Shown: piece by piece, positions 1 to 17,853 of the stretch
Layout of the letters: every line of letters begins with the position of its first letter
Numbering within the stretch: position 1 is the first letter of the stretch
IMG/VR virus record: IMGVR_UViG_3300025674_000468
Coordinates: 1 to 21,689 of that record
Reading direction: 5' to 3' (one strand)
Length of the DNA: 21,689 nucleotides
Source: a virus
Notes under the pieces: model-generated
Told to the model about the DNA's origin: nothing
Seen by the model: only the letters and a program-made list of their open reading frames with translations
Database searches by the model: none
Made by a program: the position numbers and the translations under genes

Positions 1-1866
1 GAAGATGACATGAGCAGTAACTCTGCCACGGCTATTCCTAGCCAGCAGTCGGTAAAGGCTTATGTAGACTCACAAACTGGCTTGGGTGGCGCTACGCTTG
101 CAGGTCTTTCTGATACTAACGTCACGTCTCCTGCTGATGCGGCCCTTTTGTTTTACGACACTGGCACATCAAAGTGGATTGATAACGTAGTATCTGGCGA
201 CATTACGATTGCGGATACTGGCGTGGCAGCTATTGGCTCTGGCGTCATAGTAAATGCTGATGTCAATGCTAGTGCGGCTATTGATGTATCTAAGACGGCA
301 CTGACGGCAGGCACGGGCCTTACCCTGTCTACTAACACCTTGTCCGTAAACTCTACTCAGACGCTTACTGAGCTAGATGTAGACAACATTAAGATTGACG
401 CTAATGCGGTTAAGTCAACAAACACCAACGGCAACATCCAATTATTTCCAAATGGCACGGGCTTTACAGAGCTATACGGAAATACTAATGCTGGTGCGAT
501 TCGGTTTAACTGTGAGTCTAATAGCCACGGTGTAACGATAAAAGGCCCGCCTCACTCAGCAGCGGCTACTTATACTTTAGAGCTTCCTAACGCAGATGGT
601 TCTGCTGGACAATTCTTGAAAACCGATGGTAGCGGTAAGCTCAGTTTTGGGGCTGTATCTGTTAATAACATTTCTGGCGATGTGGACATTTCAGGCGAGC
701 TGCTGGCTGACAGCTACAATGAAACATTTAAGCGGGTAACAAGTTCATCTAACGCAGCAACAGTTAATTGTGAAGATGGTAATGTGTTTGAGCATGAGCT
801 GTCAGAAAACACTACCTTTACTTTTAGCAACCCGCCAGCGGCAGGCGCAACAACTGTTAATGGCTTTGATTTAACTATTGCTGCTTATGACTCAGTTAGC
901 ACTGATGTTAGTAGCAATGTTACTAATTTAAGAGGAATTGCATTTAACAACGATGGCACAAAACTTTTTGTGGCTGATATGGCTGATAGCGACATTAGCG
1001 AATTTACAGTAGCTACTGCGTTTGATCTTTCGTCTACAGTTACTTATGTAAGAAACTTCTCTGTATCTTCTCAAGAAATCAACCCAACAGATGTTGCTTT
1101 TAATGCTAACGGCACAAAAATGTTTGTGATTGGAAGACATAACGACGCTGTTTTTCAGTATACGTTAAGTACTGGCTTTGACCTAAGCACTGCGTCGTAT
1201 GATTCAGTAACATTGAGTGTATCTTCACAAGATACGGCTCCAGAGGGGCTTACCTTCAACAGCGATGGAACAAAAATGTACGTTGCTGGAGAGGCTACCG
1301 ACACGATTTATCAATATACGCTTACTACAGGATTTGACTTAAGTACTGCCAGCTATGCCTCAAAAAGCGTTAGCGTAAACGCTCAGGACATTGATGTTTC
1401 GGATGTTGCTTTAAGCTCTGACGGCACAAAAATGTTTATTGCTGGTAACGGTAACAATACAGTCTATTTGTACAATTTAAGCACTGCGTTTGACGTAAGC
1501 ACCGCTAGTTACAGTAGCACTTCTTTTAGTGTTGGCTCACAAAACTCTGGCCCCAACGGTTTAGTTTTCAACAACGATGGAACTAAAATGTACATGGGAG
1601 GATCAGGCAGTAACGACACTGTGTATCAATACACAACAGGCGCCTCATTTATAAGCGACAGCACAGCATACGGTATGTCGCTCAAAATTATTCAAGACTC
1701 TGGAGCATCTGGGTACACCATAACGTGGCCTACATCTGTCAAGTGGCCAGGAGGTACAGCGCCTACGCTGACAGCTACAGCATCTGCTGAAGATCAATTT
1801 GTGTTCTACACGAAAGACGGTGGGACTAACTGGTACGGCTTTACAGCGGGGCAAGCCTTAGCATGA
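1..1866 (+). CDS. Phage tail fibre protein with inserted beta-propeller-like repeats (5' end cut by window edge)
   Basis: Probable receptor-binding tail fibre. The frame is open to the first base of the window, and the residues before the first visible Met (position 10) read Glu-Asp-Asp, so that Met lies inside a motif (DDMSSNSATAIPSQQSVKAY) found in the middle of marine phage tail fibres; the true start is off-window. Numbering from that Met: 1-30 conserved fibre motif; about 60-255 Thr/Ser/Asn/Gly-rich fibre shaft with LELPNADGSAGQFLKTDG (a motif common in such fibres); 255-276 first half of a C-terminal module ending TFSNPP; 285-544 repeats of 52 residues; 554-618 second half of the module (KIIQDSG, TITWP, DGGTNWYGFTAG). 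It overlaps the next gene by four bases (ATGA). The family assignment is from recognised motifs; the receptor is unknown. Confidence 0.85.
   Translation, partial: EDDMSSNSATAIPSQQSVKAYVDSQTGLGGATLAGLSDTNVTSPADAALLFYDTGTSKWIDNVVSGDITIADTGVAAIGSGVIVNADVNASAAIDVSKTALTAGTGLTLSTNTLSVNSTQTLTELDVDNIKIDANAVKSTNTNGNIQLFPNGTGFTELYGNTNAGAIRFNCESNSHGVTIKGPPHSAAATYTLELPNADGSAGQFLKTDGSGKLSFGAVSVNNISGDVDISGELLADSYNETFKRVTSSSNAATVNCEDGNVFEHELSENTTFTFSNPPAAGATTVNGFDLTIAAYDSVSTDVSSNVTNLRGIAFNNDGTKLFVADMADSDISEFTVATAFDLSSTVTYVRNFSVSSQEINPTDVAFNANGTKMFVIGRHNDAVFQYTLSTGFDLSTASYDSVTLSVSSQDTAPEGLTFNSDGTKMYVAGEATDTIYQYTLTTGFDLSTASYASKSVSVNAQDIDVSDVALSSDGTKMFIAGNGNNTVYLYNLSTAFDVSTASYSSTSFSVGSQNSGPNGLVFNNDGTKMYMGGSGSNDTVYQYTTGASFISDSTAYGMSLKIIQDSGASGYTITWPTSVKWPGGTAPTLTATASAEDQFVFYTKDGGTNWYGFTAGQALA
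862..1641 (+). repeat. 52-residue (156-nt) repeats in tail fibre, circularly closed five-blade layout
   Basis: Four complete units of exactly 52 residues start at residues 307, 359, 411 and 463 (nt 928, 1084, 1240, 1396), and a fifth starts at 515 (nt 1552). Each unit has the core F(N)xDGTK(M/L)(F/Y) followed by (V/I)xQYTLxT and FDLSTASY. The fifth unit stops after its first 29-30 residues, while the missing 22-residue second part (GFDLTIAAYDSV...) sits before unit 1 at residues 285-306. This split repeat is what beta-propellers use to close their ring. The DNA copies have diverged, so this is a protein repeat rather than a recent DNA duplication. Confidence 0.85.
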
Positions 1867-3797
1867 GTATTGCTCGAATAATGCAACAGGCCGCTGCTGG
1901 CGCTGGTGATGCTGCTACTTACGTTGACGATGTGTTTTCTACGTTTTTGTATGAAGGCACATCGGCAGTAGGAAATGTAGTTACGAACGGAATTGATTTG
2001 TCTGGCGAAGGCGGTTTGGTTTGGTTAAAGTCCAGAGGGGATGCTCAATCTCACGGCCTTTTTGATACTGAAAGAGGCGCAGGCAAAATGCTTCAGAGCA
2101 ACGCAACAGCGGCAGAGCTTTCTTATACAGATGTGTCTTCTTTTAACTCAGATGGATTTACGGCAGGTTTTTATACCGGGTGGTTTAATAGCTCAAATTA
2201 CGAGCAATGCTCATGGACATTCCGCAAGCAACCGGGATTTTTCGATGTTGTCACTTATACAGGTAACGGCACTGCTGGTCGCACCATAAGCCATAACCTT
2301 GGTGCTGAAGTTGGATTTGCCGTTGTAAAACGGACAGACTCAGCGGCTCATTGGGAGGCTCAGCATAGAAGCATAGACCTTTCTTCTAACAAGGGGCTGT
2401 ATTTAAGTACGTCAGGTGCTTTGGGTACGCATAATAATGTGTGGAATAGTACACACGCTACTTCTACCCATTTAGTACTAGGAGATCATGCAGACGTTAA
2501 TGGGGTAGGGGGTACTTACGTAGCCTACCTATTTGCCCACGATGCCCAAGACTTTGGCGAAAATTCTGATGAAGCGATTATTAAGTGTGGGAGCTATACG
2601 GGTTCATCAGCTGGAAATGAAATAAATCTTGGTTTTGAGCCACAGTGGATAATAATAAAACGAACAAACGCGGCAGACGATTGGGTTATGTATGACGTTA
2701 TGCGTGGAATGCCTGTTGGAGGAGATTCAGCAGAATTAAATCCAAATGCAAGTTATGCTGAAAACGGTTATTTTGGAAGTTCGCAACCAGACATACATCC
2801 AAATCCAACAGGATTTACTCTGCAGGGAACATCAAGCCCATATAATAGCACAGGTTCAACTTACATCTACATAGCCATCCGCAGACCCCACAAGCCAGCA
2901 TCAGAGTTTGCGGCAGCTGATTTGTTTACGCCTGCTTCTCAAAATTTTCAGCCGGGAATAATATCTGCTGGATTTCCAATTGATCTTATTTGGCACGCTC
3001 GCCAAGGCACAGCCAATTACAAGCGGTTGTTTGATAGATTGAGAGGTCCTACCAAAGGTTTCTATACCGACCAAAACAACGCTGATGTAACGCACAGTTT
3101 ATTTGGTTTTGACAACATGACGGGCTTTGAAATTCTGCCCGGAACCACAATTGATGCATGGTCTTGGATGATGTTCCGCAGAGCTAAAGGCTTTCTGGAT
3201 ATTGTGCCGTATACAGGAACTGGCTCAGCAACAACGGTGACACATAATTTAGGCGTTGCACCAGAAATGATGATTCTCAAAAACAGGGATGATGCGTCTA
3301 GCTTTCAGGTATACCACTCCGCTAATTCAGCCGATTACCATTTAGAGCTAAACAACACAAACGCTAGAAACTCAAACTCAGCAGTGTTTAACAGTACAGC
3401 CCCTACAAGTTCGGTGTTTAGCGTTGGAACACAAAACAATGTGAATGGAAGCGGCAAAAACCTTATGGCGTATTTGTTTGCTTCCGTTAGTGGAATATCT
3501 AAGGTTGGTTCGTATACCGGAACAGGTAATGACGTAAACGTAAATTGTGGTTTTTCATCTGGCGCTAGGCTTGTAATAGTAAAGCGATCAGACTCTACGG
3601 GCGGCTGGTACTTATGGGATTCTGCACGAGGCATTGTAGCGGGAAACGACAGTTATTATTTGATGAATACTAATGCCGCTCAAGTTACTAACACCGACTA
3701 CATAGACCCGCTTGCTAGTGGGTTTACCATCACATCATCAGCACCAGCAGAGCTTAATGCTTCTGGTGGAACATACGTCTTTTTAGCAATCGCATAG
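1863..3797 (+). CDS. DUF7483-like virion/tail protein with internal duplication
   Basis: Large, secreted-looking beta-rich protein of the type placed next to tail fibres in marine phages; role probably in the distal tail or host recognition. It resembles proteins annotated as DUF7483, from motifs WTFRKQPGFFD, TYTGNGTAGRTISHNLG and YVAYLFAHD. It contains two copies of one plan. Copy 1, about residues 22-345: a head part with VWLKSRGDAQSHGLFDTERG, module A (119-227) and module B (242-340, CGSYTGS...INLGFEPQWIIIKRT). Copy 2, about 353-644: head part (LIWHAR...LFDRLRGPTKG), module A' (437-540) and module B' (548-644). The start ATG overlaps the upstream stop (ATGA), suggesting translational coupling; no strong ribosome site is seen. 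The exact function is not known. Confidence 0.7.
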   Translation: MSIARIMQQAAAGAGDAATYVDDVFSTFLYEGTSAVGNVVTNGIDLSGEGGLVWLKSRGDAQSHGLFDTERGAGKMLQSNATAAELSYTDVSSFNSDGFTAGFYTGWFNSSNYEQCSWTFRKQPGFFDVVTYTGNGTAGRTISHNLGAEVGFAVVKRTDSAAHWEAQHRSIDLSSNKGLYLSTSGALGTHNNVWNSTHATSTHLVLGDHADVNGVGGTYVAYLFAHDAQDFGENSDEAIIKCGSYTGSSAGNEINLGFEPQWIIIKRTNAADDWVMYDVMRGMPVGGDSAELNPNASYAENGYFGSSQPDIHPNPTGFTLQGTSSPYNSTGSTYIYIAIRRPHKPASEFAAADLFTPASQNFQPGIISAGFPIDLIWHARQGTANYKRLFDRLRGPTKGFYTDQNNADVTHSLFGFDNMTGFEILPGTTIDAWSWMMFRRAKGFLDIVPYTGTGSATTVTHNLGVAPEMMILKNRDDASSFQVYHSANSADYHLELNNTNARNSNSAVFNSTAPTSSVFSVGTQNNVNGSGKNLMAYLFASVSGISKVGSYTGTGNDVNVNCGFSSGARLVIVKRSDSTGGWYLWDSARGIVAGNDSYYLMNTNAAQVTNTDYIDPLASGFTITSSAPAELNASGGTYVFLAIA

Positions 3798-3808
3798 GAT
3801 TATCAACT

Positions 3809-4309
3809 ATGTCTGAATACAGAGTACGAGCAACGGGTGAGGTTAAATCTCAAGGCCAGATCCGGAACGACAACAAGAATATGTCCCTGCCTAAAGTATG
3901 GACTGCAAACGTGTGTGACGCCTTGGGCGTTGATCCTGTCCTTGCCACCCCCGCGCCAGAGCCTAGCGCCGCTTACAAGTTAGTAGTGCGTAACGGTGCT
4001 GTGCAGGACGCTAAGGGCAACTGGGTTCAGGCGTGGGTAGAGCGTGAGATGTTCACTGAGTACACCGATGATGACGGCGTCACGCATTCAGTCGCAGATC
4101 AGCAGGCAGCATATGACGCAGCTAATACGGCAACCTTGGCGGCGTCCGAAAGATCTAGGCGCGACAAGCTGCTGAAAGAAACAGACCACTACGGGCTGTC
4201 TGACGTCACCATGTCAACAGAGATGACAACGTATCGTCAGGCTCTTAGGGATGTACCTCAGCAGGAGGGCTTTCCCGGCACAATTTCGTGGCCTGAAAAG
4301 CCTGAATAG
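3809..4309 (+). CDS. Phage tail (fibre) assembly chaperone
   Basis: Probable chaperone for the adjacent tail fibre proteins. The C-terminal part, residues about 117-165, carries the pattern RRDKLLKETD, YRQALRDVPQQEGFP and WPEKP, characteristic of the Phage_tail_APC (PF16778) / tail fibre assembly families. The N-terminal part (1-110) has no motif I recognise, with an Asp-rich stretch at 86-90. The start has AGGA nine bases upstream. It lies directly after two tail fibre-like genes, the usual place for such a chaperone, and its TAG stop runs into the next gene's start region. The family call is good; the client protein is inferred from position. Confidence 0.8.
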   Translation: MSEYRVRATGEVKSQGQIRNDNKNMSLPKVWTANVCDALGVDPVLATPAPEPSAAYKLVVRNGAVQDAKGNWVQAWVEREMFTEYTDDDGVTHSVADQQAAYDAANTATLAASERSRRDKLLKETDHYGLSDVTMSTEMTTYRQALRDVPQQEGFPGTISWPEKPE

Positions 4310-4972: not shown

Positions 4973-7888
4973 ATGGCAACTGCTGCTGAAATTAGTGCTC
5001 TGTATAACAAGTATCTTGGACGAGACCCTTTACAGTCTGGTATTGACGCTTGGATTGCTACAGGGCAAAACATTGAGCAGATTGAGCAGGGCATAGCTAA
5101 CTCACCTGAAGCGGCTGTGTATGAAACGTATCAAGCAACTGTTGGCCGCAAACCAACAATGGAAGAGCGGGAATTTTATGTAAACGTTAACCCCGCACCT
5201 ATTGAAATTGTTGAGCAGGTTTTGTCTGGTACGCAGGAAGCGCAAGAGTTTCAGACTCAACAGCAACTAGATGAAACGGATATGTTGGCCGACACAACGG
5301 CTGATGACACAACGGTTGATGATGTGGCCGACGATACTCCTGCTGCGGCAACAAAAGATACCTACACAGTCATTACTAGCAACGCCAAGGGTGACGCCAG
5401 CAGCCCCTTTGGTGGCACTGCCGAATCCAACCAGACAGCACAGCTTGTAGAGATGACAGAGCAAGAGCTTCGTCAAGAGTTTGAGGATTCTGGTCAGTTA
5501 CAGCAGCAGTTTGGCTCATTTGATAACTACATGGGCTATATAAATGACTCTCAAGAGTGGGTGCAGTCAGCCGATTGGATGCTTGCTAATCCCAATTATC
5601 GACCTAGCGACATAGAATCTGCTGTTATTGAGGGTGAAGATCTTGCGTTTAAACCGGGTCAAAAAGAAAAAGTTACAGAAAAGATAAGCCAAGATATTAG
5701 CAACGCTCGTCAAAGTGGTTATCAGCAGTGGATGAATGAAGGTGCTGACATACTACAGAAGTGGGGCATTCAGGACACTATCTATAACGATGACGGCGAC
5801 CAGTTTAAATGGACTGGCTCTGGGTATCAGAAAACTATTAAGGTAGATGACCACGCTAGTTTTGCTGATTACGCTACAGCTTTAACAAAATCTGCTGTTG
5901 CGGGTTTGCTTACAGGCGCTGTTGTTGGTCCAGCTTTAGGCACAAGCACGTTAGGTAAAGCCGGTACTGCGGGAATATCTAACGTAGCAGGACAGTTGGC
6001 TACTACAGGAAAAGTTGACCCCTTGGCTGCTGTAGCTAGTGGAATAACAGCTGGTATAAACCCCGGCGGTATGTTAGCAGAAAACTTTGGTCAAGCAACA
6101 AAAATAGGCACAAATATAGTTCCGTCTAATGTTGTAGGCGGTTTTGTACAAGGCGCTACAAACGAGTTAATTAGCAGTGCTATTACTGAAGGAAAACTTG
6201 ATTTAGAAGGCGCTTTAGTTAGTGGCTTGATAGACGCTGGGGTTAACGCCGCATCAGATTTATTAAGTGACGCAAGCAACAATTCCATAGAATCTGAAAT
6301 GGATCGTATTCAGAAAGATAGGGCTGTCAAAGGTTTACCCGAACTTACTGAGGAACAACTGTACGCAGCAGCTTTGACCAATGCAAATGTCGGAAAATCT
6401 GACTTAGGCGGCTTAGTAGGCGAAGGCGGCTTACTTCCTTTTATTGAGCCTGTTAGCACTGAGGGGCTAAACAAACTGCTAGGTGGTGGCGCATTTAGTC
6501 AAGTAGATGTGTTTATTGGTCCTGACGGTAAAGAATATACAGACCTAGAAATTTTAGAAGGAGCTGCTGGTGAAGGTGTTAGTCCTGCTGATATTTATTA
6601 CGGTGAGGTTCCCGGTTGGACAAGTGGTGTAATAACGCAACAAAACACAATACTGGGAGACGCCTTTGATTTTGCCAAAGAAAACATTCCCGGTGTTAGC
6701 CAAGTAACAGGGGCTGTAAGCGACCTACTAGACGCAGCAGCAGCAGTTGAATTTAAAAACACGTATGGCGCTACTCCAGAAGAGTTTCTTGAAGCAGGAG
6801 TTTCAATAGAAGAAATTCAACGGATGATTGCGTATGGTCCTCTTGACGAGACGTACAACTTTGCGGTCAACCCAAGAGGAGATTCACAGATGGTGGGTAC
6901 TTTGTCCGGTATTCCGGGCTTGTACTCCACGGGTGCTAACAACCCATTCTTGGATTACGCAGAGGCAATAGGAGATTCTGCTTCTACAATTGGAGGAGTG
7001 GATGCTTTACAAGATGCTCTTCCTATAACTAATCTTCAGGACGCTGCAGCAACAGCAGCAGCAGCAAACGCAGCAGCAAACAGTGTAGCTATTGTTAACT
7101 TATCTGGCACAGAGACTGCTGTATCATCTAACACTGTTTTACCGGGAACTAACACAACAATTGCTGATGCTATTTTGGGTGGCTTTATTGATGGAGTATT
7201 AATTGATACCCAAAATAACAACTCAACTGTTAGTTCTGGAGGAGAAACTGTTACCCAAACTTTAGATGCTGGGGTAGCTGATACTATATCTAATGTTATT
7301 AACACCACAAATAATCAAGTTGCTACTACCACTGATGTAAACGCAGGAAGATCATCTTTTGATGACTTTGAGACTACTGTAAACAACACTACTACGTTAG
7401 CAACAACAGACACTGATGTTAACGCTGGAAGATTATCTTTTGATGACTTTGGTTTTACTGACACAACTTTAGATAATAATACTGACCTTGTTAATGATGT
7501 AAACGCAGGAAGATTATCTTTTGATGACTTCAGCAACACGTCAGATACTACTGTAAATAACAACACTACTTTAACTAATAATGCTGTAAACAACGCTAAT
7601 ATCTCAGATACTGTTGTAAATAAAAACACTATTTTACCATCTAATTTAGAAACCGTCGTGCCGCCCACTACGGTGCTGCCTAGCGTCAGCAGTGACAGCG
7701 GTGGCGGAGGTGGCGGAGGTGGCGGTGGAGTTGCTGCTGGTGGTATGCTTGGAGGAAAAGGCCCTGTTCCGTTTGATATTAGAGAAATAGGAATTACGGC
7801 GCAGCCAACATTACAAAAAAGACAGCAGTTTCCTATCACAGAATCTTTATTGGGAATGCTTACAGGCAACGGGAATAGATTAGCATGA
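4973..7888 (+). CDS. Large phage structural protein, DUF4214-like N-terminus, repeats and poly-Gly C-terminus
   Basis: Probable virion-associated protein of 971 residues; function not recognised. The N-terminal 95 residues hold two helical units of DUF4214-like type (LYNKYLGRDPLQSGIDAW, then YQATVGRKPTMEEREF), each ending in a segment like ANSPEAA or TQEAQEF. Residues 95-130 are Asp/Thr rich. About 305-365 is Ala/Gly-rich and weakly hydrophobic (AVAGLLTGAVVGPALG). From about 700 the protein becomes Asn/Thr/Val-rich low-complexity sequence with three 27-residue repeats, then ten glycines at 910-919, then a short conserved-looking tail (PFDIREIGITAQ). ATG two bases after the holin stop, with AAGGG upstream. 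It lies between holin and head-tail adaptor; tail or internal virion protein is a guess from position. Confidence 0.65.
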   Translation: MATAAEISALYNKYLGRDPLQSGIDAWIATGQNIEQIEQGIANSPEAAVYETYQATVGRKPTMEEREFYVNVNPAPIEIVEQVLSGTQEAQEFQTQQQLDETDMLADTTADDTTVDDVADDTPAAATKDTYTVITSNAKGDASSPFGGTAESNQTAQLVEMTEQELRQEFEDSGQLQQQFGSFDNYMGYINDSQEWVQSADWMLANPNYRPSDIESAVIEGEDLAFKPGQKEKVTEKISQDISNARQSGYQQWMNEGADILQKWGIQDTIYNDDGDQFKWTGSGYQKTIKVDDHASFADYATALTKSAVAGLLTGAVVGPALGTSTLGKAGTAGISNVAGQLATTGKVDPLAAVASGITAGINPGGMLAENFGQATKIGTNIVPSNVVGGFVQGATNELISSAITEGKLDLEGALVSGLIDAGVNAASDLLSDASNNSIESEMDRIQKDRAVKGLPELTEEQLYAAALTNANVGKSDLGGLVGEGGLLPFIEPVSTEGLNKLLGGGAFSQVDVFIGPDGKEYTDLEILEGAAGEGVSPADIYYGEVPGWTSGVITQQNTILGDAFDFAKENIPGVSQVTGAVSDLLDAAAAVEFKNTYGATPEEFLEAGVSIEEIQRMIAYGPLDETYNFAVNPRGDSQMVGTLSGIPGLYSTGANNPFLDYAEAIGDSASTIGGVDALQDALPITNLQDAAATAAAANAAANSVAIVNLSGTETAVSSNTVLPGTNTTIADAILGGFIDGVLIDTQNNNSTVSSGGETVTQTLDAGVADTISNVINTTNNQVATTTDVNAGRSSFDDFETTVNNTTTLATTDTDVNAGRLSFDDFGFTDTTLDNNTDLVNDVNAGRLSFDDFSNTSDTTVNNNTTLTNNAVNNANISDTVVNKNTILPSNLETVVPPTTVLPSVSSDSGGGGGGGGGGVAAGGMLGGKGPVPFDIREIGITAQPTLQKRQQFPITESLLGMLTGNGNRLA
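7334..7531 (+). repeat. Three 81-nt spaced repeats encoding DVNAGR(L/S)SFDDF
   Basis: A 12-residue motif occurs at nt 7334-7369, 7415-7450 and 7496-7531, each copy starting exactly 81 nt (27 residues) after the previous one. Copies 1 and 3 differ at only two of 36 bases; copy 2 has two further silent changes. The linkers are Thr/Asn-rich and less conserved. It lies inside the low-complexity C-terminal region of the 971-residue protein. Confidence 0.9.
7700..7729 (+). repeat. Ten-glycine codon run
   Basis: Ten consecutive glycine codons built on a GGT-GGC-GGA unit, following Ser-Asp-Ser and leading into VAAGGMLGGKG. It probably forms a flexible linker before the C-terminal tail, and is a likely site of length variation. 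Confidence 0.85.
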
Positions 7889-15815: not shown

Positions 15816-15987
15816 TAACCACAGCGTGTCGTACACGTCGATTGATTACCACTCTATGTGTGAGAAGTCAAAGGACCGCATCCAGATGATGCAGAAGGAA
15901 GGAATGACTACGCCTCATGACCCGAAAGACAAGCCAGAGGACGTAGCCAAGAAGGACGGTGGTTACTCCATATTCTTCATGTCATAA
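15793..15987 (+). CDS. Small hydrophilic protein of unknown function
   Basis: A 64-residue protein starting at GTG behind a perfect AGGAGG. It overlaps the end of the 584-residue gene by 23 bases and the end of the oppositely oriented reductase gene by six bases. It is charged and probably disordered: Asn-rich start (MKTKNNNDN), then YHSMCEKSKDRIQMMQKEGM and a Lys/Asp-rich stretch (HDPKDKPEDVAKKDGG) ending in the short hydrophobic tail YSIFFMS. No family is recognised. The ribosome site is the main evidence that it is a real gene. Confidence 0.65.
   Translation: MKTKNNNDNHSVSYTSIDYHSMCEKSKDRIQMMQKEGMTTPHDPKDKPEDVAKKDGGYSIFFMS
15982..15987. other. Six-base tail-to-tail overlap of two convergent genes
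   Basis: The + strand TAA stop of the 64-residue gene (15985-15987) and the - strand TGA stop of the reductase (15982-15984) lie side by side inside each other's reading frames. The late and early transcription units therefore meet with no spacer. Confidence 0.9.
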
Positions 15988-17853
15988 CTCACAGTTGTTA
16001 CCTGTGCAGGCCAGTTGTTGTGACCCCTCAGTCATATCGCTGGCTTCTTCTATATCCCACGATATTTCCTTTGGAAAGTCCTTAACCATCTGGTTGTACG
16101 TCTTTTTGTCCACAGGCTCGTACGGTGCTTGCTGGTACGTATGGTCTGAGTAGGGCAAGAAGCTAATACCTGACACCTTGTCAAACTTGTTGTACAACCA
16201 CTGTCCCACCTCTAGAAACTCCTCATCCCTGTAGTAGCAGGTCATTGACGGCTTGTGCTCACACCAGTAGTCCTGATATATCTCCCACAGATCTAACTGC
16301 TCCATAGCACCCATGTCTGAGGCTGTCACAGCGCCCTCAGGAGACGCGATAGGAAAGGAGAATACCCGTGTACTAGGGGACATTAGATCGTCCTCCACAG
16401 GGACTCCTGCGGCCTCTAGGACGGCGCAAAGTGGGTCACGAGAGTCTGCACGGACTCTGCGAATATATTGATTGCTGTAGCGAGGGTGAATCCCACTAGC
16501 AGAATCGACCAGCTGACTAACAGTACCACTAGGCTTGACCGCAGTAATAGCGACAGAAGGGTTAATCCCCAGTTTTTTAGCCCACTGTTCGTTAGTGACG
16601 ATAGCCTCATTACGCATCTCCGTTAGCCACTTCTTGAGTTTAGCCTTGTCTTCCCGTCCTGAGAGCACAGGGTGGTCCATGATGCCTGTAAGCGATACGC
16701 CTAACAGTGCCTCTTCCTCTGTATTGGTCTTCCATACGTTACGTAGGTAACGGAAGTCAGTCAGGGTAGCCTGTAGAGTTCCAAGGATAGACGCAACTCG
16801 TACTTTTCGTTTGAGGCTTGCGAGCGTATCGTCCGACCTGATAACAACCTCTGATAGATTGCAAAACTGGTACGGGCGTAATATTATCTCCGAACAGGGA
16901 TTCGTACCGAAATCATAGGAAGCATCTCTTCGCTCGTTCTTTGCGGCTTGCTTTTGACTTGCCACTCTGCTAAAGACACCTCGTTCACCAGATCGTGATT
17001 CATACAGACTAGTCCATTCGTTTAGAAACGCCTCAAAGTCTGGCTTCTCTGTGTAACACGCAGAGTTATTCGCTAGACCACGCTGGGGTTCATCTACCCA
17101 CCACTGTCCGTGCTTGCATCGTCGGATGCGGTCGTCTGTGAGGTTACTGAGGCTGATGAGGGCGCTTCGTCTGACTCCTCCGACAACGACGATTTGAGCA
17201 ATCTTACAGCAAAGATCGTGGCACTCAATGGACGTAAGTTTTCGTCCAGCTGCTCCCTGAAAGAGTTCAATTGTGAACTTGAAAAGATCGACGAGAGGTT
17301 CAGGACCACTTGCACGGCCTCCGAAAGTCTTGAGCGGGGAACCTGCAGGTCTAACTCTGCTAACGTCCCATTCGGGAACTTGACCTGAGTACAGCAGTGA
17401 TACCAACTCCCTAAACGATTTCGCCCATCCGATCTTCGAATCTGCAACATTAATAACTGTGTCGGTTGCATGGAATGTCTCCGCTACTTCTGGCAGTTTG
17501 CTGATGTATTGACGCTCTACGCTGAAGCCTACCCCTGTGCCGCACAGCAAGACGTACATCAGTTCGTCAAAGGCCTTGGGGTGGTCGATAGGCAGGTAAC
17601 TACAGTTGAACCCTGCTACGTTGTCACGATCCAGCGCCTCGCCTGCGGTCATCAGTGCTCGCATAGAAGGCATTACGTCTAGATCGTGGATAGCCTTAAA
17701 GATCTCTGACACATCAAAGTCATTCAGAGCACCCCGGTCTGACCAGAAGTTAATGTACCTGTTTACTGTCTCTTCCCAAGTCTCCCTGCGCTTCTCTTCT
17801 GGAAGGTAACGGGCGTACCGTGACTTGTGTATGTATTGCTGGTATGCGTCCAT
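15982..17853 (-). CDS. nrdJ: Class II (adenosylcobalamin-dependent) ribonucleotide reductase, monomeric type
   Basis: Reduces ribonucleoside triphosphates to deoxynucleotides with B12 as the radical source, feeding phage DNA synthesis. The 623 residues carry all expected sites: C84 (FNCSYLPID) and C331 (QFCNLSEV) as the reductant pair, the thiyl radical C320 with N318 and E322 in GTNPCSE, the PSGT phosphate-binding motif at 441-444, and a C-terminal shuttle pair C616 and C621 (ACTGNNCEL). There is no ATP-cone ahead of the catalytic part, and the layout follows the Lactobacillus leichmannii RTPR, though shorter (that enzyme is 739 residues). The ATG directly follows the TAG of the upstream 86-residue gene, with GGAG 11 bases upstream. 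It is last in the - strand operon. Confidence 0.93.
   Translation of the reverse strand: MDAYQQYIHKSRYARYLPEEKRRETWEETVNRYINFWSDRGALNDFDVSEIFKAIHDLDVMPSMRALMTAGEALDRDNVAGFNCSYLPIDHPKAFDELMYVLLCGTGVGFSVERQYISKLPEVAETFHATDTVINVADSKIGWAKSFRELVSLLYSGQVPEWDVSRVRPAGSPLKTFGGRASGPEPLVDLFKFTIELFQGAAGRKLTSIECHDLCCKIAQIVVVGGVRRSALISLSNLTDDRIRRCKHGQWWVDEPQRGLANNSACYTEKPDFEAFLNEWTSLYESRSGERGVFSRVASQKQAAKNERRDASYDFGTNPCSEIILRPYQFCNLSEVVIRSDDTLASLKRKVRVASILGTLQATLTDFRYLRNVWKTNTEEEALLGVSLTGIMDHPVLSGREDKAKLKKWLTEMRNEAIVTNEQWAKKLGINPSVAITAVKPSGTVSQLVDSASGIHPRYSNQYIRRVRADSRDPLCAVLEAAGVPVEDDLMSPSTRVFSFPIASPEGAVTASDMGAMEQLDLWEIYQDYWCEHKPSMTCYYRDEEFLEVGQWLYNKFDKVSGISFLPYSDHTYQQAPYEPVDKKTYNQMVKDFPKEISWDIEEASDMTEGSQQLACTGNNCEL

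Follow-up and report, generated by a model that had tools for sequence, protein, structure and literature searches.

The window analysed here, a 21.7 kb fragment of a viral contig (21,689 nucleotides), starts within a tail-fibre gene in which a conserved C-terminal module is split by an array of repeats. This raises the question of whether the array is a separate domain plugged into the fibre tip, and what it may do there. What uncultured marine phages infect has long been a gap in knowledge, as receptor-binding parts go unrecognised in sequence. In the present case, the sequences of hundreds of viral contigs directly reveal a candidate head together with its limits, its variable face and the partners with which it is exchanged.

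The tail-fibre gene (1..1866, plus strand) is open from the first base, with its 5' end cut by the window edge, and encodes 621 residues in the window. Its C-terminal part matches the PHROG tail-fibre families phrog_9017 and phrog_7760, and the protein is homologous to gp46 of Roseobacter phage CRP-13 and to gp53 of Roseobacter phage CRP-4, both annotated as putative fibre proteins. We assigned it as a tail fibre, at the level of the gene, from this homology and from a nearby tail-fibre assembly chaperone (3809..4309, plus strand; Phage_tail_APC, PF16778, E 3.7e-19), a homologue of CRP-13 gp44. The gene that follows the fibre (1863..3797, plus strand) contains two DUF7483 stretches (PF24299, E 9.7e-107) and is syntenic with CRP-13 gp45 and CRP-4 gp52; a literature search returned no paper on the DUF7483 family. 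The gene order fibre, DUF7483 protein, chaperone is thus common to the window and to both Roseobacter phages. The window DNA polymerase is nearest to those of the Pelagibacter phages HTVC103P, HTVC104P and HTVC115P (49-52%). Elsewhere in the window, a 971-residue protein (4973-7888) has a DUF4214 match at its N terminus and, near its C terminus, a glycine run and several near-copies of DVNAGRLSFDDF, and a Pfam match identifies a phage-encoded ribonucleotide reductase of the B12-dependent (class II) type (15982-17853, minus strand).

The repeat array and its place in the tip module

We scanned the window fibre protein with a blade profile 52 residues long. Four whole blades follow one another on the plus strand, namely blade 1 (913..1068, residues 305-356, 68.3 bits), blade 2 (1069..1224, residues 357-408, 91.6 bits), blade 3 (1225..1380, residues 409-460, 91.4 bits) and blade 4 (1381..1536, residues 461-512, 81.8 bits), with pairwise identities of 29-56%. 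The last unit, comprising strands A-C of blade 5 (1537..1650, plus strand; residues 513-550; 43.3 bits), stops at profile position 37. The N-terminal strand that completes it lies ahead of blade 1, where 17 residues (288-304) match profile positions 36-52 with 7.2 bits, within the ring-closing strand D segment of blade 5 (847..912, plus strand; residues 283-304; strand 71-78 in the model). The top blade score in 500 shuffles of the segment was 7.1 bits, as compared with 43-92 bits for the real whole and final blades. The initial annotation had described four whole 52-residue repeats plus one split between the two ends, and this is what we found, in frame, with about 22 residues before and 38 after; the flanking motifs that it named, TFSNPP and YGMSLKIIQDSG, are both present.

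Structure prediction with AlphaFold2 returns a five-blade fold with a pLDDT of 97-99 in the ring and the strand order D / 4x(ABCD) / ABC, in agreement with the five-bladed propeller anticipated earlier. The model is a monomer calculated from a 58-row alignment, and its flanks are less confident (about 58-91). In a mixed MAFFT alignment of ring-bearing and ring-free sequences the empty N-flank was placed on the ring end, and ring-free rows were therefore trimmed to the C-flank for structure prediction. Strand order and blade counts together model the ring as five four-stranded blades with a 1+3 closure. Exactly five blades were counted in 333 of 361 viral arrays and in 102 of 106 arrays from bacterial and archaeal genomes; seven of the remaining arrays are longer runs (10, 15 or 18 blades) and the others are one to three units short, probably because units fall under the detection threshold. 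The five-blade count is a property of the ring family. A Foldseek search found two predicted viral proteins that superpose on the ring at 1.4-1.6 Å over 252-274 columns, and among the matches to solved structures listed, the 243-residue propeller 3QQZ fits the whole ring best (TMt 0.76), with seven-bladed proteins fitting poorly.

The ring separates two halves of a tip module. The N-terminal half (SGELLADSYNE...TFSNPPAAG; 691..846, plus strand; residues 231-282) is 65% identical to CRP-4 and CRP-603, its start being set by a module profile from 30 insertion-free homologues, whose match begins at residue 231. The C-terminal half (TAYGMSLKIIQDSG...GFTAGQALA; 1663..1863, plus strand; residues 555-621) is 72-81% identical to CRP-4, CRP-603 and CRP-13. 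Window residues 282 and 555 correspond to residues that are adjacent in CRP-4 (138|139) and in CRP-13 (207|208), and the insert is thus residues 283-554, with nothing lost. It consists of the five-bladed propeller and short linkers (847..1662, plus strand; 272 residues, 816 nt, in frame). The initial annotation had placed the propeller at 862-1641; the location holds, but the exact borders are shifted outward by the insertion-free homologues.

Such homologues are found both among metagenomic viruses and among cultured phages. The fibres of CRP-4, CRP-603, CRP-13 and CRP-9 contain the same tip module as the window but carry no ring, which agrees with the earlier proposal that the propeller is plugged into a loop whose flanks are nearly continuous in relatives, and excludes that all homologues carry the segment. 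Across the sampled viral contigs, the flank-to-flank gap at this insertion point, which we term socket A, is bimodal: it measures -4 to 7 residues in 148 cases and 254-277 residues in 24, all of them rings (a few being diverged modules with a ring at the neighbouring socket B), with none in between. These gaps were measured with separate flank profiles; gaps from the module profile were set aside because HMMER ran its hits into the ring. Most of the comparative sequences are fragments from metagenomes and were sampled for their similarity to the query. A module model without the ring (pLDDT 90.6) locates socket A to loop 52-59, between strands 46-51 and 60-68, so that the insertion point falls within a loop of the host fold, and a search of the PDB with this empty fold gave no significant match. 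We considered and rejected insertion of a mobile element, as no target duplication is evident at the junctions and the borders coincide with those of protein domains. These findings together confirm that the ring is a domain inserted in the fibre tip module.

Sockets and ring exchange

The tip module is probably a small all-beta unit of about 105 residues in which three loops serve as sockets for whole domains. Socket C (VTSSSN region; 739..756, plus strand) is empty in the window and precedes the strand NCEDGNVF; it is filled by a ring in four contigs (L180, L186, L128 and L004), which read SYNETFKKVSSV-(ring)-TTFDCENANVF or near to it. Socket B (DSGASG; 1696..1713, plus strand), also empty in the window, comes after the strand that follows socket A and before TITWP. 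Rings occupy it in 29 proteins with diverged modules, some of which stem from overlapping loci, and in the cultured phage ICBM2, whose flanks, once the ring is removed, match the module profile with E 8e-9. In several contigs socket B contains not a ring but a full DUF7483 domain (profile about 3-328 of 330); five of these were checked with Pfam (L213, L009, L014, L030 and L005) and two or more others were assigned by length and place. This occupant belongs to the same family as the next gene of the window phage. The initial annotation had suggested looking for relatives with a different domain at this position: rings were the only inserts found at the window's own loop, but the next loop contains a ring in some relatives and a whole DUF7483 domain in others. 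All four states of sockets A and C are seen, with a ring in A only (window, L059), in C only (L180, L186), in both (L128, L004) or in neither (CRP-603, L167), and the number of rings per chain varies between 0, 1 and 2. The three-socket module is a clear natural case of fibre-tip variation by domain insertion rather than by end-to-end fusion.

Two further loci differ in their socket contents. In one (L199:1424-4195), only some diverged blade units are recognised in the socket C segment, possibly an older or different propeller. In the other (L250:237-2165), ten blade hits fall within the about 517 residues at socket B, which are apparently two rings in tandem.

Exchange of rings between fibres is directly visible. 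Fibres L059 and L148 are 97% identical in the N-flank and 97% in the C-flank, and their rings are 49% identical. Conversely, ring identity reaches 94% between L059 and L039 and 95% between L148 and L149, with N-flanks that are only 59% identical in both pairs. The notion that the head can be swapped between phages is thus substantiated by near-identical flanks with different rings and by near-identical rings with different N-flanks. In codon windows along L059 and L148, nucleotide identity stays at 97-100% until the border is reached, falls to about 70% in the first 30 ring codons and to mostly 30-70% beyond them, and is back at 97-100% directly after the ring. These sharp steps at the ring borders reflect recombination, with borders in or beside the conserved module. 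A filled and an empty socket A can likewise occur in near-identical surroundings, as L150 (filled) and L186 (empty at socket A) have flanks that are 99% and 98% identical in nucleotide sequence.

A tree of the C-flank requires six changes between filled and empty states, at least three of them forced by supported branches; the count of gains and losses is rough because the tree has only 65 columns. It cannot fix the direction of each change and so leaves some room for a ring-bearing ancestral module, from which the insertion-free forms would have arisen by deletion, the ring then being no plug-in. Yet the empty forms are much commoner and more varied, with 92 empty versus 11 ring-bearing full modules after removal of near-copies, unrelated whole domains (ring or DUF7483) occupy one and the same loop, rings are found in three loops of the module, and exchange is visible under either direction. 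We regard an ancestral ring as very improbable, the least probable of the readings weighed here.

The variable face and the proposed role of the ring

Our best explanation, with a probability of about 0.74, is that the ring serves as an exchangeable head for receptor binding, mounted on a plug-in scaffold at the fibre tip. The loop of socket A, between two strands, holds a single-chain five-bladed propeller, with the chain entering and leaving the ring through the C-D loop of blade 5. A conserved bottom face would be turned toward the module and a variable top face, made of the D-A and B-C loops and the channel mouth, would be turned outward, where it would most likely bind a glycan or protein of the host surface. 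Homologous recombination in the flanking module could then swap the ring for another ring or for an empty loop and leave the fibre undisturbed, such exchange being possible because the flanking module is conserved. As the loop can be empty or hold another ring, and as neighbouring loops of relatives hold rings or another domain, the tip resembles a socket for exchangeable binding heads. Phage fibres are trimers; we infer the orientation of the ring in the trimer, its ligand binding and its effect on host range.

We analysed loop variability across 853 dereplicated blades. The entropies are 1.92 bits for the D-A and 2.90 bits for the B-C loops, as compared with 1.25 bits for the A-B and 1.02 bits for the C-D loops, and top loops (D-A, B-C) differ from bottom loops (A-B, C-D) with p=0.004 (Mann-Whitney); this and the tests that follow are exploratory and use loop limits taken from the model. 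Two pairs of rings separated only recently, and of the 29 replacements that can be placed in them, 17 are at the 11 top-loop positions (p=1e-5) and 2 at the 13 bottom positions. Both chain ends of the insert are located in the C-D loop of blade 5, which belongs to the bottom face; by standard propeller geometry the variable face would thus be directed away from the module. These data show that the variability of the ring is concentrated on its top face, which by standard geometry should point away from the stalk. The raised variability could reflect relaxed constraint, but the ratio of non-synonymous to synonymous changes in the recent pairs, 17:8 in the top loops versus 13:21 elsewhere (Fisher p=0.022), speaks against this.

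The same pattern bears on whether the ring needs to bind anything. It could be a structural spacer or a steric decoration that widens or stabilises the tip, in keeping with the finding that it can be missing without visible loss in the module and that its number per chain varies. Neither hypervariable top loops nor the exchange of rings between near-identical fibres would be expected of such an element, however, and we consider a spacer improbable.

It is less probable still that the ring acts as an enzyme, such as a five-bladed glycosidase or lactonase with a role in trimming surface glycans. Glycosidases are found among known five-bladed propellers, and the ring has weak family matches to SMP-30/gluconolactonase and to other propeller enzymes. 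These matches, however, span only part of the ring and arise from the shared repeat. Positions 7 and 10 of strand A, which are expected to face the channel, rank with the most variable ones (3.8 and 3.4 bits); no catalytic set is therefore conserved across the ring family, and the residues that are conserved (DGTKM, LSTAFDLSTAS) look structural. SMP-30/gluconolactonase is a six-bladed enzyme with metal-binding residues; we rejected membership of the ring in this family (PF08450) because it has five blades, matches only profile positions 79-167 of 246 and does not conserve the channel positions. The WD40, SGL and other Pfam and PDB sequence matches we likewise read as a shared repeat signal and not as family membership. 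YVTN, SMP-30 and WD40 propellers have six or seven blades. Their four-stranded blade with a DGTK turn is also that of the window ring, and a PDB sequence search matches the ring to the archaeal surface-layer YVTN protein 1L0Q with E 1.8e-9; superposition of the full ring on propellers of this type is poor (TM about 0.37-0.47).

Known fibre propellers and the wider ring family

Phage receptor-binding proteins that contain propellers are already known. The receptor-binding protein Gp45 of Staphylococcus phage phi11 has a five-bladed propeller between stem and tower, and other phage propellers include the distorted five-bladed one of PRD1 P2 and the seven-bladed one of PhiKZ gp131C (PMC4901313). 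Like the window ring, the Gp45 propeller has five four-stranded blades, an N-terminal strand that closes the last blade and one propeller per chain, and it contains a proposed ligand site (PMC4901313). It differs in being a consecutive domain, whereas the window ring interrupts a loop of a second domain, to which the chain then returns. Homology between the two is not indicated by sequence, as no match to Gp45 was found among PDB chains at E up to 1.

The best structural match in BFVD (E 3e-35) is gp51 of the Lentibacter phage vB_LenP_ICBM2, a protein annotated as hypothetical, which has a ring of the same family in the same but diverged module. Its ring is in socket B and not in A, and the ICBM2 paper makes no mention of a propeller (PMC6775973). 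Two cultured systems permit direct tests, namely ICBM2 on Lentibacter sp. SH36, with a ring, and CRP-4 on strain FZCC0023, without one.

Fibre mosaicism is well known, and the exchange of receptor-binding parts by recombination is described in sections of two published accounts (PMC10684548, PMC10386132). The cases in those sections concern the replacement of C-terminal parts or of domain combinations (PMC10684548, PMC10386132), whereas here a domain is swapped inside a loop and both flanks are kept. In the open-access literature we found no paper that unites a propeller, domain insertion and a phage tail fibre, and a multi-socket tip module that accepts whole rings or, in their place, an alternative domain, and of which filled and empty versions coexist, appears to be undescribed in the literature searched.

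The ring family is also found outside viruses. A genome collection, queried with a single sequence, contains it in uncultured SAR11 and other alphaproteobacteria, on proteins of very large size, as well as in Bacteroidota, Patescibacteria and archaeal bins; a protein often has two to four rings (L290-L369). A broader picture would be that one tip scaffold is common to marine phages and offers three standard sockets, which receive complete binding domains (five-blade rings, DUF7483) singly or combined. In this picture, rings of the family, which giant proteins of SAR11 and other marine bacteria also use, would move between the surface proteins of hosts and the fibres of phages, and ring exchange would set host range. 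We advance this only tentatively and hold it to be somewhat doubtful.

Rings also occur in other large phage proteins. CRP-13 and CRP-9 each have three rings in another large protein, encoded three genes downstream of the ring-less fibre (L084:11326-14967, L085:11329-15054). In the 484 kb phage LR756508 (L087:3260-5515), a ring seemingly occupies a hairpin of a different repeated fibre domain, in the arrangement LTYDIDPVTG-(ring)-GRFSIDV, and the empty form of the repeat, ISYDSNTGEFSV, is present in the same protein alongside the ring-filled one.
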